DNA from: Verrucomicrobium sp. BvORR034
Lineage (GTDB): Bacteria; Verrucomicrobiota; Verrucomicrobiia; Verrucomicrobiales; Verrucomicrobiaceae
DNA: 64,000 bases
Direction: 5' to 3'
Assembly: GCF_000739635.1 (NCBI RefSeq)
Contig: NZ_BATQ01000110.1
Location: 1-64,000 of the forward strand
Below, one piece after another: positions 11,100 through 33,025 of the stretch; position 1 is the stretch's first letter; each line of letters starts with the position of its first letter. A model generated the notes under the pieces. The model was not told the DNA's origin and did not search any database. It saw nothing but the letters and a program-made list of their open reading frames with translations. The position numbers and the translations under genes were made by a program.

Positions 11100-11122
11100 A
11101 CCCAAAAAATCAACAACGGTTT

Positions 11123-12541
11123 ATGAAACGCACTTCACCCAGACTGCGATCGATCATCTTTGCCATCTCAGCTCTCGCGCTGGGTTCGACAGCTTTCGCG
11201 GAGAACCTCACTGTTGAAGAACTTCACAAACGATCCATCCATCGCCGGGCGGTCGAGGCTGTCATCTGGGGAATACCAGCGGTGAACTACGAACGCATGC
11301 TCCAGGCCACCATCGCCAATGGCGGCAATGTAAACCAGGTCGTCTATTGGTCGCGGCCGGTGAACTGGAAGAACCAAACGCTCACGCCCAATCCGGACAC
11401 CATCTACCTCAATCCATTTTACGACACATCGAAGGGCCCAGTCGTCGTGGAGATCCCACCGGCCGATGCAGACCATGTCATCGTGGGCAGCTTTGACGTC
11501 GCATGGCAGAACGCGCTGGAGGATGTTGGCCCAGCCGGAGCAGACAAGGGTAAGGGTGCGAAGTACCTCCTTACGCCTCCCGGTTACAAGGAGAAAGCAC
11601 CAGACGGATACATCGTGCTGTCATCGGAGACTTACCGGGGCTTCGTGATCCTCCGGTCGAACTTCAAGAGTCGTAGCGACGCCGACATCAAATCCGCCGT
11701 CGAGCACGGCAAACGAGTCAAGATATACCCACTGGGCGGCAACCCCGATTCCACCGTCTTCGTGGACGCGTATGACAAGCCTTTCGACGCGAAGATTCCT
11801 TACGACGCAACGTTCTTCGAGCACCTCGACCGCTTCGTCCAGGCAGAGCCGTGGCTCACGCGGGACAAGGTGATGATCGACTCACTGAAGACCATCGGCA
11901 TCGAAAAAGGCAAGGTGTTTAAACCCGACGCCAAGACGAAGGAGATCCTGGAGAATGCAGCGCGTGAAGCTCACGCAGTGATCGCGTGGAAGTATGAGAA
12001 CGGATTCGTTCCTCCATTCTTCGAGGGCACACATTGGTCAGTTCCGGTCCCACCAGAGACAAGAGACGGTCTGGGCTCCATGTTCGCCGATCCGAACGAG
12101 TACGGGCTTGATGGCCGAGCGGTGATGTACCACATGGCCTACTTCAGCCCGAAGGTCCTGGGGGCGGGCCAGTTCTATCTCATGAATCCCTTCGACCACG
12201 CGGGAAAAGCGCTGGAGGGAAATAGGACCTATCGCCTGGCGGTGCCACCGAACGCGCCTATCGAGCAATACTGGTCGGTGACGGCTTACGACCGCGAGAC
12301 GCATGCTCTGATTGTCGGCATGTCACGCCCGAGCCTCGCGTCGAACGACACCGCAGTTAAGAAGAATCCAGACGGTTCTACTGACGTCTATTTCGGTCCC
12401 GAGGCTCCTGCCGGGAAGGAATCCAACTGGGTGCCCACGGACCCGAAGAGACAGTTCGAACTGCTTTTCCGCCTCTACGGCCCGAAGAAGGGGCTCTTCG
12501 AGAAGGCATGGAAGCTCTCGGATGTGGAGAAGGTCGAGTGA
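11123..12541 (+). CDS. DUF1254/DUF1214 exported protein, copy A
   Basis: I place the start at ATG 11123, giving 472 residues with a signal peptide ending near GSTAFA. The N-terminal DUF1254 part has AVEAVIWGIPAVNYERML and NPDTIYLNPFYDTSKGPVVV. The C-terminal DUF1214 part has YRLAVPPNAPIEQYWSVTAY and ends with ESNWVPTDPKRQFELLFRLY before the closing helix. DUF1254 proteins are widespread periplasmic proteins without established biochemistry. Three of them lie in tandem here (11123, 12593, 14034), all between the two HAD-X pairs. Confidence 0.9.
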   Translation: MKRTSPRLRSIIFAISALALGSTAFAENLTVEELHKRSIHRRAVEAVIWGIPAVNYERMLQATIANGGNVNQVVYWSRPVNWKNQTLTPNPDTIYLNPFYDTSKGPVVVEIPPADADHVIVGSFDVAWQNALEDVGPAGADKGKGAKYLLTPPGYKEKAPDGYIVLSSETYRGFVILRSNFKSRSDADIKSAVEHGKRVKIYPLGGNPDSTVFVDAYDKPFDAKIPYDATFFEHLDRFVQAEPWLTRDKVMIDSLKTIGIEKGKVFKPDAKTKEILENAAREAHAVIAWKYENGFVPPFFEGTHWSVPVPPETRDGLGSMFADPNEYGLDGRAVMYHMAYFSPKVLGAGQFYLMNPFDHAGKALEGNRTYRLAVPPNAPIEQYWSVTAYDRETHALIVGMSRPSLASNDTAVKKNPDGSTDVYFGPEAPAGKESNWVPTDPKRQFELLFRLYGPKKGLFEKAWKLSDVEKVE

Positions 12542-12592
12542 GGCTCCGTGCAGTCCCATTTTCACACATCGTAGAACCTCCCCAAGCTATCT

Positions 12593-14011
12593 ATGTTAAC
12601 CTCTCGTATTCATCACGCATCTAAGGCGTTGTTTGCCGTGCTGCTGGCACTTCTTGTGTCTGGCACGGCACATGCCCGTGGTCCTGCTACGCTCGATGAA
12701 GTTCGGGCCATCGCAAAGGAGGCCTACGTCTACGGCTTCCCGCTGGTGGATAACTATCGAATCCAGCACTCCTACTTCATCGACAAGGGTGGCAAGGAGT
12801 ACAAGGCGGACTGGAACACACTTGTGAACAATGCACGAGTCTACACGCCTGAGGACAAGGCCATCCAAACACCAAACTCGGACACGCCGTATTCCTACGT
12901 GGGCGCGGACCTGCGTGCCGAGCCGCTCGTTTTCACCGTGCCGCAGGTGGAAAAAGGGCGCTACTACTCCCTGCAATTCATTGACCAGTACACCTTCAAT
13001 TTCGCCTACGTCGGCAGTCGGGCGACTGGCAATGAGGCGGGTAGCTACCTACTAGCCGGCCCCGGCTGGAAAGGTTCCAAGCCCGCAGGAATCAAGTCCG
13101 TGATTCCCTGCGAGACCGAGTATGCCTTCATCTTGTATCGCACCCAGCTCTTCAATCCGGAAGACATTGAAGCCGTCAAAAAAATCCAAGCTGGCTACAA
13201 AGTCCAACCTCTCTCTCATTTCCTCGGTCAGCCTGCCCCTCCCCCTTCGCCCAAGGTGGACTTCATCACACCTCTGACTCCGGAGGCTCAAAGGACCTCG
13301 ATGGAGTTCTTCAAGGTGCTGGATTTCGTTTTGCGATTCTGTCCCGAGCACCCCTCGGAGCAAAAGCTGCGCGCCGAGTTCGCCCGCGTCGGACTTGGCA
13401 CGAGCACACCGTTCAGCCTGGACACATTGAAGCCAGAGGTGCGGAAAGCGATGGAAGATGGCATCGCAGACGCGTGGGCCGCCTTCAAAGAGTACAAGGA
13501 AACCCAGATCGATACCGGAAAACGGTCCAGCGCAGACTCCTTTGGCACGCGCGAGTTTTTGGACGGTCGTTACATCGATCGCATGTCCGCCGCCGTGCTG
13601 GGCATCTACGGCAACTCCAAGGATGAAGCGATCTACCCCGCCTACTTCATCGATTCCGACAAGAACAAACTGGATGGTGCCCATGCCTACACCTTGCGTT
13701 TTGCTTCGGGTCAGCTGCCACCCGTGCATGCGTTCTGGTCACTCACTTTGTACGAGCTCCCTGCCAGCCTGCTCTCTGCGAATGCTCTGAACCGCTATCT
13801 CATCAATACGCCGATGCTTCCCTCCCTGACGAAGGACCAAGACGGCGGCATCACCCTTTACATTCAACATGAGACCCCGGGCAAGGACAAGGAGCCCAAC
13901 TGGCTTCCCGCCCCCAAGGGCTCCTTCTTCATGGCCATGCGCCTCTACTGGCCCAAGCCAGAGGCCCTGAAGGGCGAGTGGAGGGCTCCGGCCCTGGAGA
14001 ATAAGGACTAA
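12593..14011 (+). CDS. DUF1254/DUF1214 exported protein, copy B
   Basis: The product is 472 residues with a signal peptide ending near SGTAHA. Copy B has the more canonical DUF1254 features: EAYVYGFPLVDNYRIQ, TPNSDTPYSYVGADLRAEPL and the VEKGRYYSLQFIDQYTFNFA strand region. DUF1214 features follow, with PPVHAFWSLTLYELPASLLS and then NALNRYLINT. The C-terminus EPNWLPAPKGSFFMAMRLYW is typical. It starts 51 bp after copy A. By eye it is clearly diverged from copies A and C, so this is an old family expansion rather than a recent duplication. Confidence 0.92.
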   Translation: MLTSRIHHASKALFAVLLALLVSGTAHARGPATLDEVRAIAKEAYVYGFPLVDNYRIQHSYFIDKGGKEYKADWNTLVNNARVYTPEDKAIQTPNSDTPYSYVGADLRAEPLVFTVPQVEKGRYYSLQFIDQYTFNFAYVGSRATGNEAGSYLLAGPGWKGSKPAGIKSVIPCETEYAFILYRTQLFNPEDIEAVKKIQAGYKVQPLSHFLGQPAPPPSPKVDFITPLTPEAQRTSMEFFKVLDFVLRFCPEHPSEQKLRAEFARVGLGTSTPFSLDTLKPEVRKAMEDGIADAWAAFKEYKETQIDTGKRSSADSFGTREFLDGRYIDRMSAAVLGIYGNSKDEAIYPAYFIDSDKNKLDGAHAYTLRFASGQLPPVHAFWSLTLYELPASLLSANALNRYLINTPMLPSLTKDQDGGITLYIQHETPGKDKEPNWLPAPKGSFFMAMRLYWPKPEALKGEWRAPALENKD

Positions 14012-14033
14012 AATCCAAGCAAAAAAGTCGCCA

Positions 14034-15065
14034 ATGAAACACCCACATGCATTGCACGTTATCGGCACACTGTTCGCCGTCTTTACAGCCATCGCAGCTG
14101 CTGCAGACACCGTTCCCGTGACCGTGGACAACTTTGTCCGGGCCGAGTCTGACTTGTACTTCAGCAACCTCCTCAAAGACAGCGGCGGAGCGCTTGGCAA
14201 ATTCAACCACCGTCGCGAGCCGGCGTCTATCGAGAAACAGACTATCATCCGGCTGAACCGTGACACACTCTATTCCTCAGCCTTGGTCGACCTCGATGCG
14301 GGACCCGTGACCGTCACGCTGCCGGACGCAGGGAAACGCTTCCGGTCCCTCATGGTGGTGAATCAAGACCACTATGTGCCGGACGTCAGCTATGAGTCCG
14401 GGACCTACAAGCTGGACAAGGACGAGGCTGGCACGCGTTACGCCGTGATAGGCATTCGCACGCTGGTGGATCCCGCTGATCCAAAGGACATCGCGGCTGT
14501 GCATGCCCTTCAGGACGGCCTGAAAATCGAACAGCCAGGTGGTCCAGGCAAGTTCGAAGTGCCCCAGTGGGATCCCGTGAGCCAGAAGAAGGTGCGTGAA
14601 GCGCTGCTGGTGCTGAGCTCCACCATGCCTGACTTTAAAAACGCCTTCGGCACGAAGGCGACGGTGGATCCGGTTCGCCATCTCGTGGCCAGCGCCGCCG
14701 CCTGGGGCGGCAATCCCGACAAGGATGCCGTCTATCTGAACGTGACCCCCAAACAGAATGACGGCACAACGGCCTACAAGCTTGTCGTCAAGGATGTACC
14801 GGTGGACGCCTTCTGGTCAGTGAGTGTGTACAACGCTGAAGGTTACTACGAGAAAAACGAGCACAACGCCTACACGATCAACAGCCTCACCGGGAAGAAA
14901 GCGGCCGACGGCTCCATCACGATCCAGTTCGGCGGGTACGATGGCAAGACACCCAACTGCATCCCCATCACCAAGGGATGGAACTACACAGTGCGACTCT
15001 ATCGCCCGCGCAAAGAGATCCTTGATGGCACCTGGACCTTCCCCGCTCCGGAACCGGTGAAGTAA
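14034..15065 (+). CDS. DUF1254/DUF1214 exported protein, copy C (short form)
   Basis: The 343-residue product is shorter than copies A and B by about 130 residues but has a complete signal peptide (ends AIAAAA). It carries the DUF1254 core (IIRLNRDTLYSSALVDLDAG, then PVTVTLPDAGKRFRSLMVVN with DHYV) and the DUF1214 core (VDAFWSVSVYNAEGYYEKNE, HNAYTINSLTG, IPITKGWNYTVRLYRPRKEI). The N-terminal helical extension of the longer copies is missing, so this is a natural short form rather than a broken gene. It lies 22 bp downstream of copy B. Confidence 0.9.
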   Translation: MKHPHALHVIGTLFAVFTAIAAAADTVPVTVDNFVRAESDLYFSNLLKDSGGALGKFNHRREPASIEKQTIIRLNRDTLYSSALVDLDAGPVTVTLPDAGKRFRSLMVVNQDHYVPDVSYESGTYKLDKDEAGTRYAVIGIRTLVDPADPKDIAAVHALQDGLKIEQPGGPGKFEVPQWDPVSQKKVREALLVLSSTMPDFKNAFGTKATVDPVRHLVASAAAWGGNPDKDAVYLNVTPKQNDGTTAYKLVVKDVPVDAFWSVSVYNAEGYYEKNEHNAYTINSLTGKKAADGSITIQFGGYDGKTPNCIPITKGWNYTVRLYRPRKEILDGTWTFPAPEPVK

Positions 15066-19892: not shown

Positions 19893-21446
19893 ATGAAACG
19901 ATATACCCCTAAACTCAGAGCCGTCCTCCTCCTGGCAGGGCTGCTCGTTCCCTGCCTGCTCCAGGCACAGGGCTCTGCAAAGAAGCCCAACATCCTCGTC
20001 ATCTTTGGTGACGACATCGGCCAGTCCAACGTCAGCGCCTATAGTCGCGGCCTGATGGGATTCACCACGCCCAACATTGATCGCATTGGCAACGAGGGGG
20101 GCGTTTTTGTCAGCTACTACGGCCAGCAGAGTTGCACGGCTGGACGGGCGGCATTCATCTTGGGTCAAAGTCCGTTCCGCACCGGCCTCACCAAAGTGGG
20201 CCTGCCAGGAGCGAATGTGGGCCTGCAAAAGGAAGACCCGACCATTGCCGAGTTCCTCAAGCCGCTCGGCTACCAAACCGGGCAGTTTGGCAAGAATCAC
20301 CTGGGAGACCGGGATGAATTCCTCCCCACCGCTCATGGGTTCGATGAATTCTTCGGCAACCTCTACCACCTCAATGCGGAGGAGGAACCGGAGAATCCTG
20401 ACTACCCCAAGGATCCGGAGTTCAAAAAGAAGTTTGGTCCACGCGGTGTATTGAAGTGCACCTCCGACGGCAAGATCGAAGACACGGGACCACTCACCAA
20501 GAAGCGCATGGAGACCGTGGATGAAGAGTTCCTCGCCGGAGCGAAGGACTTCATCGACCGTAGCCACAAGGCGGGGAAACCCTTTTTCTGCTGGTACAAT
20601 TCCACCCGCATGCACATCTACACCCACCTGAAGCCAGCCTCAGTGGGCAAGACAAACGCAGGCACTCAGGGAGACGGCATGGTGGAGCATGACGGCATGG
20701 TGGGCGATCTGCTCAAGCAACTCGACGACCTCAAGATTGCCGACAACACCATCGTGATCTACACCACCGACAACGGTGCCATGAAGAGCATGTGGCCCGA
20801 TGGCGGCGCCTCTCCGTTCCGCTCGGAAAAGGACACCAACTGGGAAGGTGCCTTCCGCGTGCCCGCCCTCATCCGCTGGCCCGGGAAGATCAAGCCGGGG
20901 ACGAACTTCACGGGCCTCTTCAGCGCGGAAGACTGGCTGGTCACCTTGGTGGCCGCAGCAGGTGGCGATCCCAAACTCCGCGAAAACGCCACCAAAGGCG
21001 TCACCGCCGGGGACAAGACCTTCAAGGTGCATCTGGATGGCTACAACCAGCTCGACTACCTCACCGGCAAAAGCGAGAAGAGCGCCCGCCCAGAGTTCGC
21101 CTACTTCAGTGACGATGGGGACCTGATGGCCTACCGTGACGAGCGCTTCAAGTACATCTACCAGGTGCAACGCTCTGTCGGTGTGCAGGTATGGATCGAT
21201 CCCCTGACGACTCTGCGCACGCCCCAGATCATCGACCTGAACAGCGATCCGTACGAGTACGCCATTGATGGCTCAGCCTACTACGACAACTTCATGGTCA
21301 CTCACGCCTTCCTTCTGCTGCCTTCGGCAGCCAAAGTAGGGGCGTATTTGCAGACCTACAAGGACTTCCCTCCCCGCCAACGTCCAGCTTCATTCTCGGT
21401 TGATCAAATCATCGAGAAACTCGAGGCCGGATCCAAGGGCAAGTAA
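19893..21446 (+). CDS. Exported arylsulfatase-family sulfatase
   Basis: The start at ATG 19893 gives 517 residues with a signal peptide ending LLQAQ. The sulfatase fold is clear: metal-binding KPNILVIFGDDIGQ (Asp40, Asp41), the catalytic signature CTAGR with Cys81 as the formylglycine precursor and Arg85, GQFGKNHLGD, and VIYTTDNGAM for the second metal-site Asp/Asn. Conversion of the Cys requires a formylglycine-generating enzyme, not seen in the window. The natural substrate cannot be deduced. It follows HdeD by 58 bp and precedes moxR. Confidence 0.93.
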   Translation: MKRYTPKLRAVLLLAGLLVPCLLQAQGSAKKPNILVIFGDDIGQSNVSAYSRGLMGFTTPNIDRIGNEGGVFVSYYGQQSCTAGRAAFILGQSPFRTGLTKVGLPGANVGLQKEDPTIAEFLKPLGYQTGQFGKNHLGDRDEFLPTAHGFDEFFGNLYHLNAEEEPENPDYPKDPEFKKKFGPRGVLKCTSDGKIEDTGPLTKKRMETVDEEFLAGAKDFIDRSHKAGKPFFCWYNSTRMHIYTHLKPASVGKTNAGTQGDGMVEHDGMVGDLLKQLDDLKIADNTIVIYTTDNGAMKSMWPDGGASPFRSEKDTNWEGAFRVPALIRWPGKIKPGTNFTGLFSAEDWLVTLVAAAGGDPKLRENATKGVTAGDKTFKVHLDGYNQLDYLTGKSEKSARPEFAYFSDDGDLMAYRDERFKYIYQVQRSVGVQVWIDPLTTLRTPQIIDLNSDPYEYAIDGSAYYDNFMVTHAFLLLPSAAKVGAYLQTYKDFPPRQRPASFSVDQIIEKLEAGSKGK

Positions 21447-21545: not shown

Positions 21546-22514
21546 ATGAGCAGCCGCGATCAGATCCTCGATCTCAAAAAGCGCATCTCCGCATCCGTGA
21601 TTGGCCAGGAGGCGGTGGTAGACCAGTTGCTCATCGCCCTGCTGGCCAATGGCCACCTCCTCATGGAGGGGCTCCCTGGGCTCGCAAAAACCCGGACCAT
21701 CAAGACACTGGCCAAGAATCTTGAGAGCCAATTCAGCCGCATTCAGTTTACTCCGGATCTGCTTCCGAGTGACATCACCGGTACGGAGATGTACACCGGT
21801 GAAGGCGCGGGCGGCAAATTTGTCTTCCAGCCCGGCCCCGTCTTTGGCAACCTCATCCTCGCAGATGAAATCAACCGCGCCCCTGCCAAGGCGCAAGCGG
21901 CCCTGCTGGAGGCCATGGAAGAGCGGCAGGTCACCGTCGCAGGCACCACGCATCCCCTGCCGGAGTTATTCCTCGTACTCGCCACGCAGAACCCCATCGA
22001 GCAGGAGGGCACCTATCCCCTGCCGGAGGCCCAGATGGATCGCTTTCTCCTGCACGTCTTCGTCGGTTACTCCAGCGACGAGGATGAGCGCAAGATCCTC
22101 CGCCTCGTACGTGGTGAGGACGCGGGTCAGTCCCCGGCATCCAATGGCCAGGTGGCCGCCCAATCCGTGCTGGATGCCCGCAAGGAAGTGCTCTCCGTCC
22201 AGATCTCTGAGGCTGTGGAAAAGTACATCGTGGCGCTAATTGCCGCGACCCGCCGTCCAGCGGATTTCAAGGGCTCCAAGCTCTCAGAATGGATCCGCGT
22301 GGGCGCCAGTCCCCGCGGCACTCTGGCGCTGGACCGCGCAGCCCGGGCCAAGGCCTGGCTGGATGGACGTGACACTGCCACACCGGAGGATGTGCAGAAG
22401 ATGACTCATGCCTGTTTGCGGCACCGGCTGATCCTCACCTATGAAGCGGAGGCGGAAGGCACCACCAAGGACACGGTCCTGGACGAACTGCTCAAGCAGG
22501 TTGCCGTCATCTAG
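21546..22514 (+). CDS. MoxR-family AAA+ ATPase
   Basis: The 322-residue cytosolic ATPase has Walker [16 protein letters not shown] (about residues 39-53), Walker [21 protein letters not shown], and a sensor region [20 protein letters not shown] followed by MDRF with the arginine finger. MoxR ATPases act as chaperone-like partners of VWA proteins. The downstream DUF58, DUF4381 and VWA genes form the usual MoxR/Bat set. The phosphoketolase gene 32 bp downstream separates it from those partners, which is unusual. Confidence 0.95.
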
Positions 22515-22546: not shown

Positions 22547-25060
22547 ATGAGCAAAACTTCCCGCAAATCCTCATCCGCCAAAACAGCTGCGGCAGCGTCT
22601 GCCAGGCAAAACACCCGGGCGCAAAAGCCGACACCTCGCACGGAAAAAGGACCGCTCTCTGATGACCAGCTTGCACGAATGGATGCCTGGTGGCGTGCGG
22701 CCAACTATCTCTCTGTCGGCCAGATCTATCTCCGGGACAATCCCTTGCTGACGAAGCGTCTCAAGCGGGAACACATCAAGCCCCGCCTGCTGGGCCACTG
22801 GGGCACCACGCCGGGCTTGAACTTCATCTACGTTCATCTCAACCGGATCATCAAAGAGCAGGACCTGAACATGCTGCTGGTCACCGGTCCCGGTCACGGT
22901 GGACCGGGCATTGTGGCCAACACTTACCTGGAAGGCACCTACAGCGAAGTGTATCCGGAGATCACAGAGGATGAAGTCGGCATGCAGCGCCTCTTCAAGC
23001 AGTTCTCGTTCCCCGGCGGCATCCCCAGCCATGTGGCCCCGGAGACACCGGGCTCGATCCACGAGGGGGGCGAGTTGGGCTACTCTCTCTCTCACGCGTA
23101 CGGCGCTGCATTCGACAATCCTGACCTCATCATTCCCACCATCGTGGGCGATGGAGAGGCGGAGACGGGCCCCCTTGCCACCGGCTGGCATGGCAACAAG
23201 TTCATCAACCCTGTGCGCGACGGTGCCGTGCTGCCCATCCTGCACCTCAATGGCTACAAGATCGCCAACCCTTGTTTCCTCGCCCGCATTCCTCACGAAG
23301 AGCTCCAAAAGTTCTTTGAAGGCATGGGCTACCGCCCGTGGTTTGTCGAAGGCGATGACCCTGCCCTCCTCCACCAGCAGATGGCATCGACCCTGGACGA
23401 GGTGACGGCAGAGATTCGATCCATCTGGAAGAGCGCGCGGAAACACGGCTTCCAGGGACGCCCCGCCTGGCCCATGATCGTCCTGCGTACCCCCAAAGGC
23501 TGGACATGTCCCAAGGAAATCGACGGCCTCAAGTGCGAAGGCTATTGGCGGGCGCATCAGGTGCCCATGGGAGACATGGACAAGCCTGAGCACGTAAAGG
23601 TGCTGGAAGGCTGGATGAAAAGCTACCGGCCCGAAGAACTCTTCGACGCCACCGGTCATCTCCATGCGGACATCGCCAGCCTCGCTCCGAGTGGCACACG
23701 TCGCATGAGTGCCAATCCGCACACCAATGGCGGACTGCTCTTGCGGGATCTGCGTCTGCCGGACTTCCGCGACTACGCCATCAAGTGCCCCGCCCCCGGC
23801 GAGAACTTTGCCGAGGCCACCCGGGAGATGGGCCGCTTTCTCCGGGACGTGATGAAGCTCAACCTGGAGATGCAGAACTTCCGCCTCTTCAGCCCGGATG
23901 AAAACAACTCGAACCGCTGGCAGGACGCTCTACAGGTGACCAGTCGCGCCTATGCCGCAGAGATCCTCTCCAAGGACGATCATTTGTCCCCAGACGGACG
24001 GGTCATGGAGGTGCTCTCCGAGCACCAGTGCCAGGGCTGGCTGGAGGGTTATCTCCTGACGGGACGCCACGGCTTCTTCAGTTGCTACGAGGCCTTCATC
24101 CACATCATCGACTCCATGTTCAACCAGCATGCGAAGTGGTTGAAAGTCTGCCGACACATCCCGTGGCGACGCCCCATTGCTTCCTTGAACTATCTGCTCA
24201 GCTCCCACGTCTGGCGGCAGGATCACAATGGCTTCAGCCACCAGGACCCCGGCTTCCTGGACCACGTCATCAACAAGAAGTCGGAGGTCATCCGTGTGTA
24301 CCTCCCCCCGGATGCCAACACCCTGCTAAGCGTGACCGATCACTGCCTGCGCAGCCGTAACTACGTGAATGTGGTGGTCGCAGGCAAGCAGCCCGCCCCA
24401 GTCTGGCTTTCCATGCAGGACGCCGCCCAACATTGCGCCGCCGGGGTGGGCATCTGGGACTGGGCCAGCAATGACCAAGGCGGTGAGCCGGATGTCGTCA
24501 TGGCCTGCTGTGGAGACGTGCCCACGCTGGAGACGCTCGCCGCCGTCGAGCTCATTCATCAGCATGCGCCGGACGTCAAAGTCCGCGTGGTGAATGTGGT
24601 GGACCTTATGAAACTTCAGCCGGTGGAAGAGCATCCTCACGGACTGCACGACCGCGAGTTTGACGCCATCTTCACCAAGGACAAGCCGGTCATCTTTGCT
24701 TTTCACGGCTACCCCTGGCTCATCCACCGCCTCACCTATCGACGCACCAACCACTGCAACCTGCATGTGCGTGGCTACAAAGAGGAAGGCACCACCACCA
24801 CACCCTTTGACATGTGCGTGCTCAATCAACTGGACCGCTTCACCCTCATGGGAGACGCGCTGAGCCGCGTCACCAGGCTGGGCAGCCGTTTGGGCTACAT
24901 TCTGCAATTCGTCCACGAGCAGCTCCACCACCACCGGGTGTACATCTGCGAGCACGGCGATGATGTGCCAGAGATTCGTGACTGGAAGTGGAACGCGAAA
25001 CTCAACGGTGCCACCAGCCGTGGCTCCCGCCGGGCGGATACTTCCGCCGACAACGTTTGA
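22547..25060 (+). CDS. xfp: Xylulose-5-phosphate/fructose-6-phosphate phosphoketolase
   Basis: The 837-residue thiamine-diphosphate enzyme splits xylulose 5-phosphate (often also fructose 6-phosphate) with phosphate into acetyl phosphate and a sugar phosphate. The family signature [15 protein letters not shown] and the cofactor-binding [20 protein letters not shown] are intact, as are [20 protein letters not shown] and [21 protein letters not shown] Lys/Ala/Ser-rich tail of about 35 residues precedes the catalytic start at [20 protein letters not shown]. The gene lies in the MoxR/Bat operon (32 bp after moxR, 11 bp before the DUF58 gene). Acetate kinase and phosphotransacetylase are not in the window. 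Confidence 0.97.
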
Positions 25061-25071
25061 CCTCCCTTTAC

Positions 25072-26040
25072 ATGTCAGAACCGCAACCGCCATCGCAACC
25101 CGATCCCGTGAACCCTCCGGCAGCGCCCGGGGTGTATGCGAATCTGGCCGATCTCGTGGCGTTGCAATACCAGGCACGTGGTTTCAGCCTCCTGCCGCGT
25201 CAGCCCGTCCACTCCCTCCTGGCAGGTCGGCATGCTTCACGGCTGCGCGGTCGTGGGCTCAACTTCGAGGAAATCCGCCGCTACCAGCCCGGAGACGACA
25301 TCAGGCAGATCGACTGGAAGGTCACTGTGCGCACCCGCAAGACCCACAGCCGCGTCTATACGGAGGAGCGGGAGCGCAGCGTCTTCCTGCTCGTGGATCA
25401 GAGGTCAAGCATGTTCTTCGGCAGTGTGCAGAACATGAAGTCCGTCACCGCCACAGAGGCCGCCGCGCTGGCCGCCTGGCGTGTGATCACCCAGAAGGAC
25501 CGCGTGGGCGCCCTTGTCTTCGATGACCAGAGCATCGAGGAAATACCCCCCCACCGGAGTCGGAGTGGCGTCATGCGGATTCTCAATGCCATCCTCCAGA
25601 AGAATCACGCACTGAGCGTCGCCGCAACCGCTCAAGCCAACGCCGGGATGTTCAATGAGGTCCTTCGCCGTTGCGTCAATCTCGCCCGCCATGACTGTCT
25701 CGTCTGCATCATCAGCGACGGTGCCGGCCATGACGAGGAATCCCAACACCTGCTCACCCGCATCTCCCAGCACAACGACGTGCTCTTCGTCTTTGTGAAT
25801 GATCCCCTGGAGTGTGAGTTGCCCGATGCCGGACCATTGATCTTTGGTGACAAGACGGGGCAGATGGAAATCAACACCAGCAACCGGTCGCTGCGTGAGC
25901 GCTATAGGGAAACGTTCGCGGAGCAACGCGAAGCAGGAAGAAAATTCCTGCTTCACCGTGAAACGCCTGTCCTGTCCCTCACTACCACACTGGGGGTCGC
26001 CACCCAGATCCGCCATCACCTCGGCTCCCGCAAATTGTAG
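25072..26040 (+). CDS. DUF58 domain protein of the MoxR/Bat system
   Basis: The ATG at 25072 gives a 322-residue protein without a signal peptide. The DUF58 core is seen in GRGLNFEEIRRYQPGDDIRQ followed by IDWKVTVRTRKTHSRVY, then a VWA-like strand with ERSVFLLVDQRSSMFFG. The VWA-like DxSxS motif is degenerate (DQRSS), as is common for DUF58. DUF58 proteins usually partner MoxR ATPases. It is 11 bp downstream of phosphoketolase and 2 bp upstream of the DUF4381 gene. Confidence 0.92.
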   Translation: MSEPQPPSQPDPVNPPAAPGVYANLADLVALQYQARGFSLLPRQPVHSLLAGRHASRLRGRGLNFEEIRRYQPGDDIRQIDWKVTVRTRKTHSRVYTEERERSVFLLVDQRSSMFFGSVQNMKSVTATEAAALAAWRVITQKDRVGALVFDDQSIEEIPPHRSRSGVMRILNAILQKNHALSVAATAQANAGMFNEVLRRCVNLARHDCLVCIISDGAGHDEESQHLLTRISQHNDVLFVFVNDPLECELPDAGPLIFGDKTGQMEINTSNRSLRERYRETFAEQREAGRKFLLHRETPVLSLTTTLGVATQIRHHLGSRKL

Positions 26041-26042
26041 CC

Positions 26043-26561
26043 GTGAAACCCGATCCCACCAGTCTGGACCGACTGCATGACCTGGTACTGCCCCCTGCAG
26101 TACCCTGGTGGCCTCCCTCCCCGGCGTGGTACTGGGTGCTGGGGCTCCTTGCTGTTCTGGCACTGGTGTACCTGGTAAGGGCGCTTCTCCACTGGCAGCA
26201 CAACCGCTACCGCCGGGAGGCTCTGCACCTCGCCACCCTGGAGCAACAGCGTTTGCATGATCCCGCCACCCGGGTCGAGGCATTGGTGAAGCTCGGGGAA
26301 ATATTGAAACGGACGGCCATCACCGCCTTTCCGCGGGAGCAGACCGCCTCTCTCACCGGCCCGTCATGGCTGGCCTTCCTGGATCGCACCAGCCCCACGC
26401 CTGGCTCACTGCCTGCAGACCTCGCCGCCCTGGAGACCGCCGCGTATGATCCTCGAACCGCCGGCAAGATCGATGCCCCACAGGCCGCCCGCCTCGCAGA
26501 GGCCGTGCGGGACTGGTTGGCTCATCACCGCATCCCAGTCACCCCCGGAGGGCCCACGTGA
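26043..26561 (+). CDS. DUF4381 membrane protein of the Bat operon
   Basis: The 172-residue product starts with GTG, two bases after the DUF58 stop. A short N-terminal LHDLVLPPAVPWWPPSPAWY segment leads into one transmembrane helix (YWVLGLLAVLALVYLVRALL), followed by a helical cytoplasmic domain containing ALVKLGEILKRTAITAFPRE and LTGPSWLAFLDR. This is the DUF4381 pattern found between DUF58 and BatA genes. Its stop overlaps the ATG of the next gene (TGATG), so translation is probably coupled. Confidence 0.88.
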   Translation: MKPDPTSLDRLHDLVLPPAVPWWPPSPAWYWVLGLLAVLALVYLVRALLHWQHNRYRREALHLATLEQQRLHDPATRVEALVKLGEILKRTAITAFPREQTASLTGPSWLAFLDRTSPTPGSLPADLAALETAAYDPRTAGKIDAPQAARLAEAVRDWLAHHRIPVTPGGPT

Positions 26562-27595
26562 TGCCTGTTCTCGCCCATCCCTGGCTCCTCTGCCTGCTGC
26601 CCCTTCCCCTTCTGGTGGGCTGGCTGCTGCCACCTCACCGCGAACACCGCAAGGCCCTCACGGTGCCTTTCCTGAACCGCCTGCTGACCTACTCGGGCCA
26701 GCATCCCCATGAGGGGGCTCTCGTGCCCCAGGGCCGGGCCTTGCGCAAGGCCTCCCTCATTCTGGGCTGGGTCTTGATCGTACTGGCCATGGCCCGCCCG
26801 CAACTCATTGAACCACCGATCCAGAAGGAAGTGGCTGTGCGCGACCTGCTCCTGGCGGTGGACCTCTCCGGCTCGATGGAAACCAAGGATTTCAAAAACG
26901 CCAAAGGTGAGATGGTGGACCGCCTCACCGCCGTGAAGGAGGTGCTGGGTGATTTCCTCTCCAGGCGCAAAGGAGACCGTGTGGGGCTCATCTTCTTCGG
27001 CACCGCGCCATTCGTCCAGGCCCCCTTCACAGAGGATCTCAACGTCTGCCGCCAACTCCTTGACGAGGCTCAGACAAAAATGGCCGGCCCTCAGACCGCG
27101 TTTGGCGATGCTCTCGGCCTGGCCATCAATGTCTTCGAACGCAGCACGGTGAAGGAGCGGGTTCTTATCGCCCTCACCGATGGGAACGACACCTCCAGTC
27201 AAGTGCCCCCGGCCAAGGCGGCCTCCATTGCCAGGGACAAGGGCATCGTCATCCACACCGTGGCCGTCGGCGATCCCCGGGCGGCCGGAGAGGACGCGCT
27301 GGATGTGGCCACGCTTCAGAGTGTGGCCAGCACCACCGGTGGCGTCTTTTCCCACGCCACCGATCGCAAGCAACTGGAGCAGATCTACCGGCAACTGGAC
27401 GAGCTTGAGACCCGCAAAGCCCAGACCATCAGTCACCGCCCCCGGCGGGACGTGTACTGGTGGCCACTGGCCATTGCCTTTGTCCTGTCATTGGCGCAGC
27501 AACTGGTGCAGCTCGCCTTGCAGCATCGGAGAAAGCGAAGCAACACCGCGACATCACATGCTGCGGAGCGTTCCCCTCTGGAGGCCGCGTCATGA
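26561..27595 (+). CDS. BatA-like VWA membrane protein
   Basis: The 344-residue protein begins with two hydrophobic segments (about residues 5-24 and 63-78) and has a VWA domain with an intact MIDAS motif: DLLLAVDLSGSM places Asp101, Ser103 and Ser105. Further metal-site elements lie in FFGTAPFVQAPFTED and RVLIALTDGND. A C-terminal transmembrane helix (about WWPLAIAFVLSLAQQLVQLA) completes the BatA layout. It overlaps both neighbours (TGATG upstream, ATGA downstream). VWA Bat proteins have been linked to aerotolerance in Bacteroides; the role here is inferred. Confidence 0.93.
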   Translation: MPVLAHPWLLCLLPLPLLVGWLLPPHREHRKALTVPFLNRLLTYSGQHPHEGALVPQGRALRKASLILGWVLIVLAMARPQLIEPPIQKEVAVRDLLLAVDLSGSMETKDFKNAKGEMVDRLTAVKEVLGDFLSRRKGDRVGLIFFGTAPFVQAPFTEDLNVCRQLLDEAQTKMAGPQTAFGDALGLAINVFERSTVKERVLIALTDGNDTSSQVPPAKAASIARDKGIVIHTVAVGDPRAAGEDALDVATLQSVASTTGGVFSHATDRKQLEQIYRQLDELETRKAQTISHRPRRDVYWWPLAIAFVLSLAQQLVQLALQHRRKRSNTATSHAAERSPLEAAS

Positions 27596-28512
27596 TGGGA
27601 GACTTCCATTTCATCCGTCCCCTTTGGCTGCTGGCACTGGCACCGGCCCTGCTGGTGTGGTGGCTGCTGCGTCACCACACTGATCCTGCCCAACCCTGGC
27701 GCGGCATCATTGCCCCTCATCTGCTACCCCACCTGCTTGGCGGCAGGGATCATCAGGCCAGATTCATTCCGCTGGATCTCATCGCCATCGGCTGGGTGCT
27801 CAGCGCATTCATCATCGCCGGACCCAGTTGGCGGCGCGAACCCACCCCCTTCGCTGAGGACACGGCGGCACTGGCCATCGTCATCCGTGTGTCTCCTTCC
27901 ATGGAGACGGAGGACGTCCTGCCCTCCCGCCTGGCCCGCGCCACGGAGAAAGTCCACGACCTTCTGGCCCTGCGACCGGGTGCCAAGACCAGCCTCATCG
28001 CCTATTCTGGCACCGCCCATGTCGTGATGCCTCTCACGTCCGATGCTGGCATCATCAACACCTTCGCCCAGGCCCTCAATGCCAAAGTCATGCCCCGAGA
28101 AGGAGACGTCGCCGCCGAGGCCCTTCAGCTGGCCGAGAAATCGCTCGAAGAGGCAGGATCCGGATCCATCCTCTGGCTTACCGACAGCATAGCCCCAGAA
28201 CAATCGACGTCACTCACACAATGGCGGTCAAAATCCGACTACGACGTTCGGGTGCTCGCCCCGTTGTTACCCGGAACAGAACTGACCGCATTAAAAGCCA
28301 ACGCGCGGCCCGTGCGCGCAGACTTCACCGCCCTGGCGGCTGATGACAGTGACGTGCAATCCCTCGCCCGGCTGGCGAAGTTCTCTGACGTGAGCGCGCA
28401 TGACACCACCGGGCGCTGGCGTGAGAGCGGCTATTTCCTCACCCCCATCCTCGCCCTGCTCATGCTGCCCTTCTTCCGCCGTGGGTGGATGGTGCCCACC
28501 GCTGCCCGCTGA
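27592..28512 (+). CDS. BatB-like VWA membrane protein with degenerate MIDAS
   Basis: The start at ATG 27592 overlaps the previous stop and gives 306 residues. The N-terminus has a membrane segment (LWLLALAPALLVWWLL), a second follows at about residues 61-78, and one more lies at the C-terminus (ILALLMLPFF). The VWA domain is recognisable (SRLARATEKVHDLLALRPGA, LIAYSGTAHVVMPLTSDAG, SGSILWLTDS). The DxSxS metal motif, however, reads Arg99-Val-Ser-Pro-Ser, so the metal-coordinating Asp is replaced by Arg. It probably acts with the BatA-like protein but may not bind metal. Confidence 0.9.
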   Translation: MMGDFHFIRPLWLLALAPALLVWWLLRHHTDPAQPWRGIIAPHLLPHLLGGRDHQARFIPLDLIAIGWVLSAFIIAGPSWRREPTPFAEDTAALAIVIRVSPSMETEDVLPSRLARATEKVHDLLALRPGAKTSLIAYSGTAHVVMPLTSDAGIINTFAQALNAKVMPREGDVAAEALQLAEKSLEEAGSGSILWLTDSIAPEQSTSLTQWRSKSDYDVRVLAPLLPGTELTALKANARPVRADFTALAADDSDVQSLARLAKFSDVSAHDTTGRWRESGYFLTPILALLMLPFFRRGWMVPTAAR

Positions 28513-29165
28513 TGCACCTGCCCCGACACCTCTGGACCATGCGGAACGCCCTCCTGGCGGGCCTGGGGCTGTTTTTGCTCGTGCAGTCCCTGCGGGAGCC
28601 CCACTTCTGGATCACAGCAGATCAGAAGGGCTCCCGTCTCTTCCATCAAGGCAGGTACGCGGAGGCCGCTAAGGCCTTCACCGATCCCTGGTGGATCGCC
28701 ACCTCCCAGTATCGACACGGGGACTTTGAGGTCGCAGCCAAGACCTTTGCCCGCGTGCCCGGAGCCAAGGGTGCCTATGATCAAGGCAACGCCTGGCTTA
28801 TGAATGGGAAGTACGACGCGGCCATTGCAAGCTACGACCGGGCCCTTGGCTTCCAGCCGGGCTGGAAGGAGGCAGAGGAAAACAAGGCGCTCGCCGTAGC
28901 AAGGAAACAACGCCTCGACGCCTCCGGCAAAGACCGCGACCAGGAATCTACGGAAGCCTACAAGCCGGACGAGATCGTGTTTGATCAGAAGGGCGAGGAC
29001 AAGCAGGGCAAGCCCATGGAGCTGGGGTCCGAAAAGATGTCCGATGACGAACTGCGCGCCTCCTGGCTGCGCCGTGTGCAGACCACCCCATCTGATTTCC
29101 TCAAAGCCAAGTTTGCCTCCCAGGCGGCGTCATCCGCAAAAGCTGAAGAGAGACCCAGGGAGTGA
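28512..29165 (+). CDS. BatC-like TPR protein
   Basis: The 217-residue product starts at ATG 28512, overlapping the previous stop (TGATG). A first hydrophobic helix (about NALLAGLGLFLLVQSL) anchors it. Tetratricopeptide-like helices follow: GSRLFHQGRYAEAAKAF, QYRHGDFEVAAKTFARV and GNAWLMNGKYDAAIASYDRA. The C-terminal third is charged, rich in Lys, Glu and Asp, and contains DDELRASWLRRVQTTPSDFL followed by KAKF, a motif common at the end of Bat operon TPR proteins. It likely scaffolds the VWA proteins at the membrane. Confidence 0.88.
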   Translation: MHLPRHLWTMRNALLAGLGLFLLVQSLREPHFWITADQKGSRLFHQGRYAEAAKAFTDPWWIATSQYRHGDFEVAAKTFARVPGAKGAYDQGNAWLMNGKYDAAIASYDRALGFQPGWKEAEENKALAVARKQRLDASGKDRDQESTEAYKPDEIVFDQKGEDKQGKPMELGSEKMSDDELRASWLRRVQTTPSDFLKAKFASQAASSAKAEERPRE

Positions 29166-29215: not shown

Positions 29216-31630
29216 ATGAAAGCGCTCCTTCTGGTCCCCATCCTTCTGGGTGCGATCGCATCCCCGGCCCTGCAAGGGGCACCCGCTCCTGCCAGGTCAA
29301 CGGCATCCACCCCTGGTGGACCTGGCTGGCCCAGGGAAGCCACCAAGGACGGTGTAAAACTCACCGTGTACCAGCCACAAATCGATGTCTGGAAAGGCTA
29401 CCGCGACCTCAAGGCACGCGCCGCCTTCGTGCTGACAACGAAGGACGGCAAGCCAGCCATCGGCGTGTTGGAAGTATCGGGCAATACGACCGCAGATGTT
29501 GAGAACCGCACGGTGTTGATCAGCGATCTGCAAATCACTGCGGCGCGATTCCCCTCCCTTCCCGAGGCGGAGGTCGCCCCCATGGAGGCGCTCTTGAAGA
29601 AGACCTTTCCCGGGAAATCCATGGTGGTCTCACTGGACCGCCTTGCGGCCGGTGCCGAGCACACCAAAGAGACCGCAAAGCCGCTCGATCTCAAGATGGA
29701 TCCACCCAGGATCTTCGTCAGCAACAAGGCTGCCGTGTTGCTCATGGTGCAGGGCAAGCCCGTGAAGGCTCCCATTGCTGGCACCATGCTGGAGTTTGTG
29801 GTCAACACCAACTGGGACCTGCTGCATGATCCCGCATCAGGAGCCTACTACCTGCTGAGCGACAAGACCTGGCTCACCACCAGTGACCTTGCCGGGGAAT
29901 GGACTCTGGCCAGCGCACTGCCCAAGGACTTCTCAGCCCTGCCCAAGGGAGACCAGTGGGATCATGTGAAAAAGGCCGTCCCTCCCAAGATTGAGCACGG
30001 CATGTCCGTGCCGCAGGTGTTCTACTCGGAAGAGCCCGCCGAGCTGATCGTCTTTGAAGGCAGCCCTGTCTGGCAGGAGGTCGAAGACACCCATCTTCTC
30101 TGGGCAAAGAATACTGAAAGCTGGGTTCTGGAGGATGCCCGGGATCACAAGATTTACTTTCTAGTAAGCGGAAGGTGGTTCACCTCTGAAAAGTGGGAGG
30201 GGCCCTGGACATTTGCGAGCGGCAATCTGCCGGAGGACTTCAAGAACATCCCGCCAGATTGCGAGTGCGCGGACGTTCTCGCCTCTGTGCCCGGCACGCC
30301 AGAGGCCGCAGATGCCGTGCTGCTTGCACAAGTACCGCAAGAGGCTGTGGTCAATCGCAAAGAGGCCGAAGGCAAGGCAAAGGTGACCTACGACGGGGAG
30401 CCGAAGTTTGAGGGCATGGAAGGCACCTCCATGACCTATGCGGTGAACACGAGCTCCGACGTCGTCTTCACTGGCGGAAGTTATTACCTCTGCCAGAATG
30501 CCGTCTGGTTCGTTTCCACCGCTCCCATAGGACCATGGGCGATCTGTCTGGACGTGCCTGCGGTGATCTACACCATCCCGCCGGCCTACCCGGTGCATCG
30601 TGTCACCTATGTGCGGGTGCACAGTGGCAGCACCAGTGATGCGGTGGTCTGCAGCTATACCGAGGGCTACTTCGGAGCCTTTGTTGCCGGGGTCGCCACG
30701 ACAGCCGCGCTGGTCTGGGGATCCGGCTGGTATTACCCGCCTTACGTTGCCTGGGGCGGGCCTGTTCCGATCTACCGCCCCTGGCCCGCCACCTATGGAG
30801 TGGCCGCAGCTTACAATCCGTGGACTGGCGGCTACGCCATCGGCGGCCGGGTCTATGGGCCCTATGCCTCTGCCGGGCGAGCCGCCTGGTACAATCCTGT
30901 GACCGGGAACTACGGCCGCGCCGCGCGTGTGGAGGGCCCGTACGGTGCTCGCACGTGGGCCGCTGGGTACAATCCCCGCACGGACACCGGCTGGGCCACC
31001 CATCAAGGAAACAACGGCTACGCCCAGTGGGGCAGCAGCGCGGTACGCCGGGGCGATGACTGGGTGCGCGCCGGCCACGTGGCGACCGATCACGGCGGCG
31101 CCGCCCGCTGGCGGGGCTCAGAAGGCGGCGGCAGGGTCTGGCGCGGGGAGGACCACCATGGTGGAGCCGCCGTTCACGACGGCAACTTCTACGCCGGGCG
31201 GGACGGCAACGTTTACCGGCGCGATGACAACGGCAGCTGGGCCAAGTACGACCATGGGGACTGGAACTCAGTGGACAGAAAGGATGAACTCCATGATGCC
31301 CGCAACCGCTACCAGGACCATCACCCCGACCCGAACCTTCATGCGGGTGAACACATCAGCAGATCCAGCTCCACCGAAATCAAGCACACGGAACACGCGG
31401 CCGTCACCAGACGCTCTGCCGTCCAGCCATCTGATGAAGTCCAGCACCACTTGGACAGGGAATCCTTCAACCGCCAGCGCAGTGATTTCCAGGCCCACCA
31501 GCAGCGGACCTACCAGTCGTCCCAGCATCGAGCCTCCGCCCCGGCCTTCCACCGGTCCAGCTCCGCCTCCTTCAGTTCTCGATCTTTCAGCGCAGGCCAT
31601 GCCAGAGGTGGGGGCATGCGCCGTCGTTAA
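29216..31630 (+). CDS. Large exported protein with three W/Y modules and a His/Arg-rich tail
   Basis: The 804-residue product has a signal peptide (ends PALQG). Residues about 50-460 hold three copies of a module of the form YYLLSDKTWL...GEWTLA...P, starting near bases 29839, 30149 and 30472. The centre (about 495-640) is Gly/Tyr/Trp-rich with AAAYNPWTGGYAIGGRVYGP-type repeats. The last 160 residues are rich in His, Arg, Ser and Asp and probably disordered. I do not recognise a characterised family. It sits between the BatC-like and BatD-like genes, 50 bp from the first and 19 bp from the second, so it is probably an extracytoplasmic Bat component. Confidence 0.8.
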   Translation: MKALLLVPILLGAIASPALQGAPAPARSTASTPGGPGWPREATKDGVKLTVYQPQIDVWKGYRDLKARAAFVLTTKDGKPAIGVLEVSGNTTADVENRTVLISDLQITAARFPSLPEAEVAPMEALLKKTFPGKSMVVSLDRLAAGAEHTKETAKPLDLKMDPPRIFVSNKAAVLLMVQGKPVKAPIAGTMLEFVVNTNWDLLHDPASGAYYLLSDKTWLTTSDLAGEWTLASALPKDFSALPKGDQWDHVKKAVPPKIEHGMSVPQVFYSEEPAELIVFEGSPVWQEVEDTHLLWAKNTESWVLEDARDHKIYFLVSGRWFTSEKWEGPWTFASGNLPEDFKNIPPDCECADVLASVPGTPEAADAVLLAQVPQEAVVNRKEAEGKAKVTYDGEPKFEGMEGTSMTYAVNTSSDVVFTGGSYYLCQNAVWFVSTAPIGPWAICLDVPAVIYTIPPAYPVHRVTYVRVHSGSTSDAVVCSYTEGYFGAFVAGVATTAALVWGSGWYYPPYVAWGGPVPIYRPWPATYGVAAAYNPWTGGYAIGGRVYGPYASAGRAAWYNPVTGNYGRAARVEGPYGARTWAAGYNPRTDTGWATHQGNNGYAQWGSSAVRRGDDWVRAGHVATDHGGAARWRGSEGGGRVWRGEDHHGGAAVHDGNFYAGRDGNVYRRDDNGSWAKYDHGDWNSVDRKDELHDARNRYQDHHPDPNLHAGEHISRSSSTEIKHTEHAAVTRRSAVQPSDEVQHHLDRESFNRQRSDFQAHQQRTYQSSQHRASAPAFHRSSSASFSSRSFSAGHARGGGMRRR

Positions 31631-31649: not shown

Positions 31650-32675
31650 ATGAGGTTTCCCACTCTATATCTGCTGCTGGCATGCGCCTTCGTGGGACCG
31701 ACACCGACGTTGGCCCAGGAGACAAAAGTGCGTTCAGCGCTCGCTTCACCGCCACCCTGCTATGCAGGCCAGAAGCTCACCCTGGCAGTGGAGCTTCTGG
31801 CCCCAGGCTATTTCGCGAGTGCCCCCACGTTTGACATGCCAGATCCCCACGGTCTGGTCATCATCCCTCCGATAGGCAGCCCCATTGTAAGCAGTGAGAC
31901 TGTCGGTGCCATCACCTACACGGTGCAGCGGCACGAGGTGTCCGTGCTCGCCCCTGAAGCCGGTGAGAAAGTGATCCCTCCCCTGACCATTCGCTTTCGA
32001 TACAAGCGTGCGCCGCTCGATAAAGAAAGCATCGCCGCGACCGTGCATACTCCGGAGCTGAAGTTCCAGGCCGTACAGCCTCCCGGCACGGAAGCACTGG
32101 GACAGATCATCAGTGCCAGGGAGCTCACCGTGACCGAAACATGGAAACCCGACCCCGCCACAACCAAGGCGAAGGCGGGCGATGCTTTCACCCGCACCAT
32201 CACCTTCTCCGCCCAAGACATGCCCGGCATGATGTTCCCCCCCTTCCCGGACGGCAAGATCGATGGTGTCGCGATCTATCCCAAAGATCCCGTAGTCAAA
32301 GACCACAGCGAGCGCGGAAACCTGACAGGCCAGCGGGTGGACACCATCACCTACCTTGTCCAGCACCCCGGGCATTACACCTTGCCCGGAGCCAAGCTCT
32401 CCTGGTGGGATCTGGACGCAGCGCAAGTTCGCGCCATTGAACTCCCCTCCCATGCCATCAACGTGGCGCCCAATCCTGCCCTCGCATCGACTCAAGCGGC
32501 GGTCGCGGTGGCACCAGGCCCACGCTGGTCCGCTCCCTTCATCGCGATTGCGTTGGTTGTTACCACGACTCTTGCGCTGCTCCTGGCTAGCCATCGTTCT
32601 CGCCGATGGGTCCTCCACTGGATCAGCGCACTGCGACCGGTGCATCTCCAGCCGCTGAATCCACCCGGCCCTTGA
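31650..32675 (+). CDS. BatD-like protein (short form)
   Basis: From ATG 31650 the product is 341 residues with a signal peptide ending TLAQ. Two Ig-like domains follow, with BatD-type features: QKLTLAVELLAPGYFASAPT, ITYTVQRHEVSVLAPEAGEK then VIPPLTIRF, and RTITFSAQDMPGMMFPPFPD. A C-terminal transmembrane helix (FIAIALVVTTTLALLLAS) and a short basic tail end the protein. Typical BatD proteins are longer, so this is a compact version. It closes the Bat operon, 26 bp before a DUF3302 gene. Confidence 0.8.
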   Translation: MRFPTLYLLLACAFVGPTPTLAQETKVRSALASPPPCYAGQKLTLAVELLAPGYFASAPTFDMPDPHGLVIIPPIGSPIVSSETVGAITYTVQRHEVSVLAPEAGEKVIPPLTIRFRYKRAPLDKESIAATVHTPELKFQAVQPPGTEALGQIISARELTVTETWKPDPATTKAKAGDAFTRTITFSAQDMPGMMFPPFPDGKIDGVAIYPKDPVVKDHSERGNLTGQRVDTITYLVQHPGHYTLPGAKLSWWDLDAAQVRAIELPSHAINVAPNPALASTQAAVAVAPGPRWSAPFIAIALVVTTTLALLLASHRSRRWVLHWISALRPVHLQPLNPPGP

Positions 32676-32701
32676 CTCCTCCGGGACAACCCTTGCAACC
32701 G

Positions 32702-33025
32702 ATGAGACACGACCCCTTGGAATGGCTGGCCCTGACACTCCTGTTGGGGATGCCCGTGTTCCTGATCTACCTGATCATCTTCATCCATGACATCCCCTAC
32801 CAGATGGCGAAAAAGCGCCAGCATCCGCAGCAGGACGCCATCTTTGTCGGGTGTTGGCTGAGTCTCTTCACCCTGCATCTGATGTGGCCGCTGCTCTTCA
32901 TCTGGGCAGTCAGTCGTCGGGCCCCGCTCGCACCGCCACCAGGGTCGGAGGACGCCACACTCACTCCTCCCCAGCAAAGCCGTGGCGGTGGAGCAGGTGG
33001 ACACCGCACGCGACCAGCGGGATGA
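32702..33025 (+). CDS. DUF3302 membrane protein with foreign C-terminal tail
   Basis: From ATG 32702 the frame is 107 codons. The first 73 residues form two transmembrane helices and the DUF3302 pattern (DPLEWLALTLLLGMPVFLIY, IFIHDIPYQMAKKRQHPQQD, LHLMWPLLFIWAVSRR), as in YiaW/YibI proteins. The last part is Gly/Pro/Arg-rich and is simply the +1 reading of the hlyD remnant that begins at about 32982. In other bacteria DUF3302 genes sit directly upstream of an HlyD-type gene. Here the end of one and the beginning of the other have been lost together, so the tail is probably not native. Confidence 0.8.
   Translation: MRHDPLEWLALTLLLGMPVFLIYLIIFIHDIPYQMAKKRQHPQQDAIFVGCWLSLFTLHLMWPLLFIWAVSRRAPLAPPPGSEDATLTPPQQSRGGGAGGHRTRPAG

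Follow-up and report, generated by a model that had tools for sequence, protein, structure and literature searches.

The P0001 gene and its Bat operon

The window analysed here is a stretch of 64,000 nucleotides of DNA from Verrucomicrobium sp. BvORR034. On its forward strand, an exact and intact open reading frame with an ATG start encodes a protein of 804 residues, named P0001 (Table 1). A MoxR-type AAA+ ATPase, VWA proteins, a TPR protein and BatD are all present together around this gene, and the Pfam assignments give the order MoxR, phosphoketolase, DUF58, DUF4381, VWA, VWA, TPR, P0001 gene and BatD. Bat operons are stress-related gene sets. An exported protein of this length between BatC- and BatD-like genes had been the starting point of a preliminary description of this DNA; the frame is exact, the start looks like a signal peptide by eye, and the Pfam neighbours agree with the location. 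P0001 is thus a putative Sec-exported protein. The gene starts 50 bp past batC and ends 19 bp ahead of the batD start, and a pattern scan of these two short gaps found no promoter-like or terminator-like pattern. In this arrangement the P0001 gene may be co-transcribed with the Bat genes.

The BatD Pfam score is barely above threshold (24.3 bits against a cut-off of 24.1). The first VWA protein does not match PF07584 (BatA), and the genome has ten PF07584 matches, none of them on the window contig. The label BatA therefore rests on gene order and the VWA domain. Because a relative of P0001 in the same operon of Verrucomicrobium sp. BvORR106 (L009) is 84% identical over a match spanning residues 1–804, and because dN/dS against L009 is 0.073 for the whole gene, a rough figure since dS is saturated, the open reading frame is a real gene. 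It is under strong purifying selection.

Table 1. Positions of genes and protein regions in the window
Feature	Position	Strand	Basis
Phenol_MetA_deg-type outer-membrane channel	7617..8492	+	Pfam
Three DUF1254 family proteins	11120..15065	+	PF06863 at three places; tblastn
Arylsulfatase directly upstream of MoxR (start by eye)	19893..21446	+	Pfam Sulfatase; conserved neighbour
MoxR-type AAA+ ATPase	21546..22514	+	Pfam AAA_3
Phosphoketolase XFP, apparently inserted in operon	22547..25060	+	Pfam XFP
DUF58 protein (start by eye)	25048..26040	+	Pfam; longer ORF from 24988
DUF4381 protein	26043..26561	+	Pfam
BatA-like VWA protein	26558..27595	+	Pfam VWA
BatB-like VWA protein (start by eye)	27592..28512	+	Pfam VWA_2; longer ORF from 27460
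BatC-like TPR protein (start by eye)	28530..29165	+	Pfam TPR; longer ORF from 28485
Putatively exported 804-residue protein P0001	29216..31630	+	ORF; dN/dS against L009; relatives
Signal peptide-like start and linker, residues 1–37	29216..29326	+	By eye; dN/dS 0.25
N-terminal domain, residues 38–155, YceB/DUF1439 TULIP-like	29327..29680	+	VIA Z 9.6 to 3l6i; hhalign 88.7%
Module I, residues 163–262	29702..30001	+	hhalign repeats; invariant G180, N197, W219
Module II, residues 265–372	30008..30331	+	hhalign repeats; invariant N299, G319 R320 W321, W331
Module III, residues 385–470	30368..30625	+	hhalign repeats; invariant G394, N411, W431
Gly/Tyr/Trp-rich centre, residues 480–620, short YNP-TG / GPY repeats (by eye)	30653..31075	+	Composition
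Basic tail, residues 651–804, DGNVYRR motif, ends -RRR	31166..31627	+	-RR count in members
BatD-like protein	31650..32675	+	Pfam BatD; longer ORF from 30927

Related operons with an empty batC/batD junction

Two genomes of a neighbouring genus (G289 and G297) carry the same cluster of genes, and their batC stop overlaps the batD start with no gene between, in line with the earlier statement that Bat operons normally have no component of the P0001 type. No member of the P0001 family was found in either genome. The batC stop also overlaps the batD start in G248, which belongs to another taxonomic family of the window's order and has its own P0001-family member some 22 kb ahead of MoxR rather than within the Bat operon. 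No XFP match lies between MoxR and DUF58 in G289, G297 or G248. Within the window's genus, G288 has neither BatC nor a P0001-type protein. Because batC and batD overlap in these related operons, which have neither the P0001 gene nor XFP at the corresponding places, both seem to have entered an older operon whose genes overlapped, a direction of change that we infer from the comparison.

That a phosphoketolase gene was likewise inserted into this operon favours the main rival explanation for the position of P0001, in which it is an independent envelope protein whose gene landed by chance between batC and batD and has no functional tie to Bat or to the cluster. However, the gene is under strong selection where it sits. 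XFP also lies 11 kb from the family member in L091, and acetate kinase and phosphate acetyltransferase lie near the member in L065; a link to the phosphoketolase/acetate pathway was set aside, one case of each being too few.

Modular repeats, centre and tail of P0001

The three W/Y modules of P0001 are confirmed as mutually homologous tandem repeats. In hhalign comparisons of slices cut from an alignment of 54 family members (<85% identity), the values are 99.8% between modules I and II, 99.4% between I and III and 99.3% between II and III, compared with at most 3.9% for module I against five column-shuffled module II profiles and at most 0.4% for the N-terminal slice against the modules. Three tandem modules had been described before, with starts near 29839, 30149 and 30472; the repeats hold and the starts do not, as these positions (residues 208, 312 and 419) mark only the Y/W half of each module. 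The full units comprise 86–108 residues, begin 34–47 residues earlier and follow a separate N-terminal domain. The positions of a G..N(T)..W..(G-P-)W pattern are kept in each module, and many of them are invariant in 43 sequences. Because mean coverage across members is 1.00 for each module, the presence of three modules is a constant of the family.

Prediction of a single repeat, a check proposed in the preliminary description, gave a pLDDT of 48.8 for module II modelled alone, too poor for a structure search. In the three-module model, ten-residue blocks of the modules are mostly at pLDDT 71–91. Propeller-type structure matches over the modules were discarded (TM about 0.1). Likewise, neither the likeness of module III to DUF6515, a neighbouring Y-rich protein represented by three sequences (hhalign 8.6%), nor DUF2793 matches in three members (best E 0.023) were accepted, the former specifically as homology.

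A Gly/Tyr/Trp-rich centre and a long His/Arg-rich tail, both noted previously, are borne out by composition: residues 480–600 contain 21 G, 15 Y and 8 W per 121, and residues 640–804 contain 17 H, 22 R and 21 S per 165. Against L009, dN/dS is 0.031 for residues 480–650, and the highest value among the slices tested is that of residues 1–37. The protein ends with -RR in 38 of the 50 full-length members, the window included, and Arg is the last residue in 47; in 2000 trials in which the last 40 residues were shuffled, the number of -RR endings averaged 1.8 and reached 6 at most. The three members without a terminal Arg are L036 and two related Pseudoalteromonas rows (L068 and L069). The tail is thus a feature of the family. 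By eye, -RR follows a Gly-rich tail without a hydrophobic stretch. To our knowledge, such an ending is unlike known C-terminal sorting signals.

A probable TULIP-like N-terminal domain

The N-terminal domain of P0001 likely resembles YceB/DUF1439, a TULIP (tubular lipid-binding) domain, a likeness new to this analysis. An AlphaFold2 model of residues 32–485, built from four sequences, has pLDDT 70.8 and pTM 0.50, with the N-terminal domain weaker at about 60. When this model was searched with VIA-align, E. coli YceB (3l6i) came first with Z 9.6, rmsd 3.7 and 106 aligned residues, followed by the next row at 7.0; models without a clear match typically score Z 7–8. The top 20 rows comprise what we take to be 15 TULIPs, four Aha1 proteins and one ToxS, the presumed TULIPs being YceB, juvenile hormone binding protein, mite group-7 allergens, OrfX2/OrfX3, BPI, CETP, BPIFA1 and relatives. 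Consistently, YceB is the best PDB row in Foldseek (E 1.0e-3). A Foldseek search of a viral structure library yielded no usable match (best E 2.4e-3, TM about 0.1).

Profile comparison agrees with the fold. Aligned with a profile of 16 DUF1439 proteins, the N-terminal domain reaches hhalign 88.7%, with E 2.6e-6 for one comparison. The controls remain at or below 0.5% for five shuffled N-terminal domains against DUF1439, 0.53% for the modules against DUF1439, 0.22% for the N-terminal domain against eight unrelated families of the cluster and 1.0% for DUF1439 against the same eight. At a limit of E 10 and with HMMER filters on, none of 43 members has a match to a TULIP model of Pfam. Because fold and profile agree, but the model is modest and a direct Pfam match is lacking, a TULIP-like domain is likely rather than proven.

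A sulfatase/DUF1254 cluster shared with rhizobial plasmids

The Bat operon of the window belongs to a cluster of about 30 kb around the P0001 gene, which comprises sulfatases, DUF1254 proteins, an outer-membrane channel, HAD proteins and the MoxR-Bat genes. PF06863 occurs at five places in the genome, three of which are those in Table 1. The upstream part (2694–21446) also holds, by Pfam, DUF2092 and DUF6515 proteins, a zinc peptidase and a DUF308 (HdeD-type) protein. Two HAD-type proteins at 8777–9754 and 15447–16424 are 84% identical to each other, and three related unknown proteins at 6301–7575, 9783–11099 and 16444–17784 are 33–61% identical.

Rhizobial plasmids carry the same cluster, along with a relative of P0001 that is 40% identical. 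Fully annotated rhizobial clusters contain DUF1254, arylsulfatase, MoxR, DUF58, DUF4381, VWA, VWA, BatD, formylglycine-generating enzyme, HAD, a 'transporter' and the family member. The window matches most of these genes, spread over 7.7 to 33.6 kb, and has no match to the formylglycine-generating enzyme. In G248, the stretch of about 30 kb after the family member contains a formylglycine-generating enzyme, a channel, sulfatases, HAD, a DUF308 protein, DUF1254 proteins and Bat genes. Because cluster and family member recur together on rhizobial plasmids, their association does not go back to one chance insertion alone, and their joint occurrence in Rhizobiaceae and G248 counts against a gene that merely landed in the operon.

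Downstream of batD, positions 32696–33569 hold a DUF3302-HlyD pair as in an Agrobacterium cluster. The HlyD match covers only 179 of 379 residues, and neither gene has a match in the sister-genome stretch L072, which suggests that the pair is decaying. In Rhizobium sp. RCAM05350 (L059), both the family member and the genes next to it are broken into several fragments and appear to be decaying.

Distribution of the family

Relatives of P0001 are found in Verrucomicrobiota and Proteobacteria. With a presence threshold of E <= 0.001, matches occur in 15 of 288 genomes of a phylum sample (own genome included, two of the 15 weak), in 6 of 59 genomes of the window's taxonomic family (own included), in 23 of 249 genomes of the order of Xanthobacter and in 14 of 250 of the order of Achromobacter; each of the last two counts takes in the genome at the centre of the sample as well as a few matches that are weak or partial. 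Genome G278 holds two members (L035 and L036). Of 72,556 plasmid records, 42 have a match, chiefly from Ensifer, Rhizobium and Paraburkholderia; in 30 of these the match covers 80% or more of the protein, and 20 of the 42 were examined. Weak, short or repeated matches (L025, L026, L112, L113, L117, L120–L123, L132 and L135–L138) were left uncounted, and L041 and L042 are duplicates of the loci L060 and L062.

Where the gene of a plasmid relative is annotated, it is called 'hypothetical protein', 'SH3 domain-containing protein', 'LysM peptidoglycan-binding domain-containing protein' or 'carbohydrate-binding family V/XII'. Pfam SH3_3 occurs in 11 of 43 members and LysM in one of 43, and an SH3-type stretch precedes the N-terminal domain in relatives by eye; P0001 itself has neither domain by Pfam. 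In bacteria, both types of domain generally bind to material of the cell wall. P0001 matches no model of Pfam, NCBIfam or PHROGs and no PDB sequence. A search of PDB with the 43-row profile returned only four FAM155A chains (E 0.04–0.43) over the low-complexity tail, which were ignored. No study of the family was found in the open-licence PMC literature.

In a tree of 63 rows with several long branches, the window groups with L009 and G248 in a single clade (100/100), and the sister clade (99/95) consists of rhizobial plasmids plus genomes of the order of Xanthobacter. The Bat label requires two changes on this tree, with 47 rows in no group and with L089 counted as Bat from MoxR alone.

Genomic context and alternative explanations

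Context was sampled at 68 loci with a family member, the window included, some of them from close strains. The flanks extend at least 17.5 kb on both sides at 30 loci, many reach 8–10 kb and 11 have less than 5 kb on one side, so that absences are partly limited by sequence length. At least three Bat genes occur within 18.5 kb at eight of the 68 loci and within 30 kb at nine, as far as the sequence reaches; among the 30 loci with long flanks, seven have Bat. The nine Bat loci are the window, its sister species, G248 and the rhizobial plasmid loci L060, L062, L064, L085, L086 and L088, and at L089 MoxR alone is seen at the end of its stretch. None of 27 loci from the orders of Xanthobacter and Achromobacter has a Bat match, and two have sulfatase/HAD or DUF1254 neighbours. 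At least two cluster genes (counting sulfatase, DUF1254, Phenol_MetA_deg channel, HAD, formylglycine-generating enzyme and u424/u438/u446) lie within 18.5 kb at 17 of the 68 loci. The sulfatase/DUF1254 cluster is therefore the steadier companion of the family, although it accompanies fewer than half of the loci, and in some lineages this cluster includes Bat.

These counts bear on the proposal that P0001 is a structural component of the Bat complex and joins it to the cell surface, as the preliminary description had suggested. The position in the operon and the SH3 and LysM domains of relatives speak for such a component, and an envelope role remains plausible on the latter ground. However, most examined members have no Bat nearby in the sequence sampled and Bat operons of the same cluster in G289 and G297 have no such gene, so that the family is neither constantly present in Bat operons nor constantly found in Bat context, and the Bat-specific part of the proposal is not supported in the form given. 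A structural role in the complex is very unlikely. Homologues occurring widely outside Bat context with an established unrelated function had been named as evidence against it; relatives are indeed widespread without Bat, and no established function was found for any of them.

The same counts favour chance placement of an independent envelope gene, with fewer than three Bat genes in the sequence examined at 59 of the 68 loci and with the sampled loci of the orders of Xanthobacter and Achromobacter nearly devoid of cluster neighbours. Against it, each of the seven members detected in the window's order has two or more genes of the cluster type nearby, although the sulfatase matches of genus g3 are only 26–33% identical. 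We regard chance placement as a real possibility, though on the doubtful side.

Sulfatases are numerous in the phylum of the window genome. Because proximity to them might be trivial, the occurrence of DUF1254 was counted. In genus g3, DUF1254 was found within about 5 kb in two of four genomes with the protein and in none of 26 tested without it, the 26 having been selected for completeness out of 35. Across all 50 genomes tested, 9 of the 17 that encode the protein also have DUF1254, as do 6 of the 33 that lack the protein; in five of the nine (G211, G194, G186, G189 and G278) DUF1254 lies far from the protein gene. The DUF1254 association is loose, and the count is small and mixed.

P0001 might instead be a glycan-binding partner that presents a (sulfated) polysaccharide to the clustered sulfatases. 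A sulfatase adjoins MoxR and sulfatases occur in many neighbourhoods, the modules are rich in Trp and Tyr, and the annotation of two plasmid relatives names a carbohydrate-binding family. However, no carbohydrate-binding (CBM) family of Pfam matches P0001 or any of the 43 members, and sulfatase proximity alone says little in a phylum so rich in them. Such a role is improbable.

A model for the function of P0001

We prefer, tentatively and short of an even chance, an explanation in which P0001 acts in the cell envelope on behalf of the sulfatase/DUF1254 cluster, holding a hydrophobic ligand, and may be assembled by MoxR-Bat. Upon export through Sec, the TULIP-like N-terminal domain would accommodate a lipid or another hydrophobic molecule, the three W/Y modules would form a binding scaffold and the basic Gly/His/Arg tail ending in -RR would hold the protein to anionic material of the envelope. 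P0001 may then work with the channel and the sulfatases of the cluster. Insertion of the gene at the batC/batD junction in the window's genus would allow P0001 to be made together with the MoxR-Bat proteins. We propose that MoxR-Bat acts as a folding machine, which would fold or assemble exported proteins of the cluster, including P0001.

A wider reading is that a previously undescribed family of large TULIP proteins, built of a TULIP domain, three W/Y modules, Gly/Tyr/Trp repeats and a nearly obligatory C-terminal Arg, carries the hydrophobic ligand in an envelope system that spans phyla. In this system, MoxR-Bat would mature FGly-dependent sulfatases, DUF1254 proteins and the carrier to process a sulfated hydrophobic substrate. 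We consider this reading rather unlikely. If the N-terminal domain is a TULIP, P0001 and its relatives would add one more to the lipid-binding families of bacteria, a large one that is widespread in Proteobacteria and Verrucomicrobiota and missed by Pfam, NCBIfam and PHROGs. Furthermore, the cluster ties MoxR-Bat to defined candidate clients, namely the sulfatase and P0001, so that what Bat acts on could be tested directly in soil bacteria that are not pathogenic.

Comparison with known systems

The Bat aerotolerance operon of Bacteroides and Leptospira has the same order of MoxR, DUF58, VWA, VWA, TPR and BatD, as described in part in PMC3557215; the same paper reports that bat deletion in Leptospira gives no oxidative-stress phenotype. 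In contrast to this operon, the set in the window adjoins a sulfatase/DUF1254 cluster, holds the phosphoketolase and P0001 genes as apparent insertions and has a first VWA gene without a PF07584 match. A DUF1254 gene appears in a regulon table in PMC6710368.

Proteins annotated as 'carbohydrate-binding family V/XII' or 'SH3 domain-containing', such as WP_118845259.1 and WP_231283975.1, belong to the same family as P0001, with 34–41% identity over 62–89% and three modules. However, the annotated relatives mostly lie outside Bat operons, and the rhizobial members have an extra N-terminal SH3 domain.

PMC6791001 lists P47/OrfX2, YceB/DUF1439, DUF4403, DUF2140 and DUF2993 among the known bacterial TULIP families. 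Among solved folds YceB is the best match to the modest model of the N-terminal domain, the DUF1439 profile is similar to that domain, and P0001 shares a signal-like N-terminus. In contrast to YceB and other bacterial TULIPs, P0001 has no Pfam TULIP match and, by eye, no N-terminal lipoprotein cysteine; lipid binding is predicted, and its TULIP-like part is one domain of a large modular protein.
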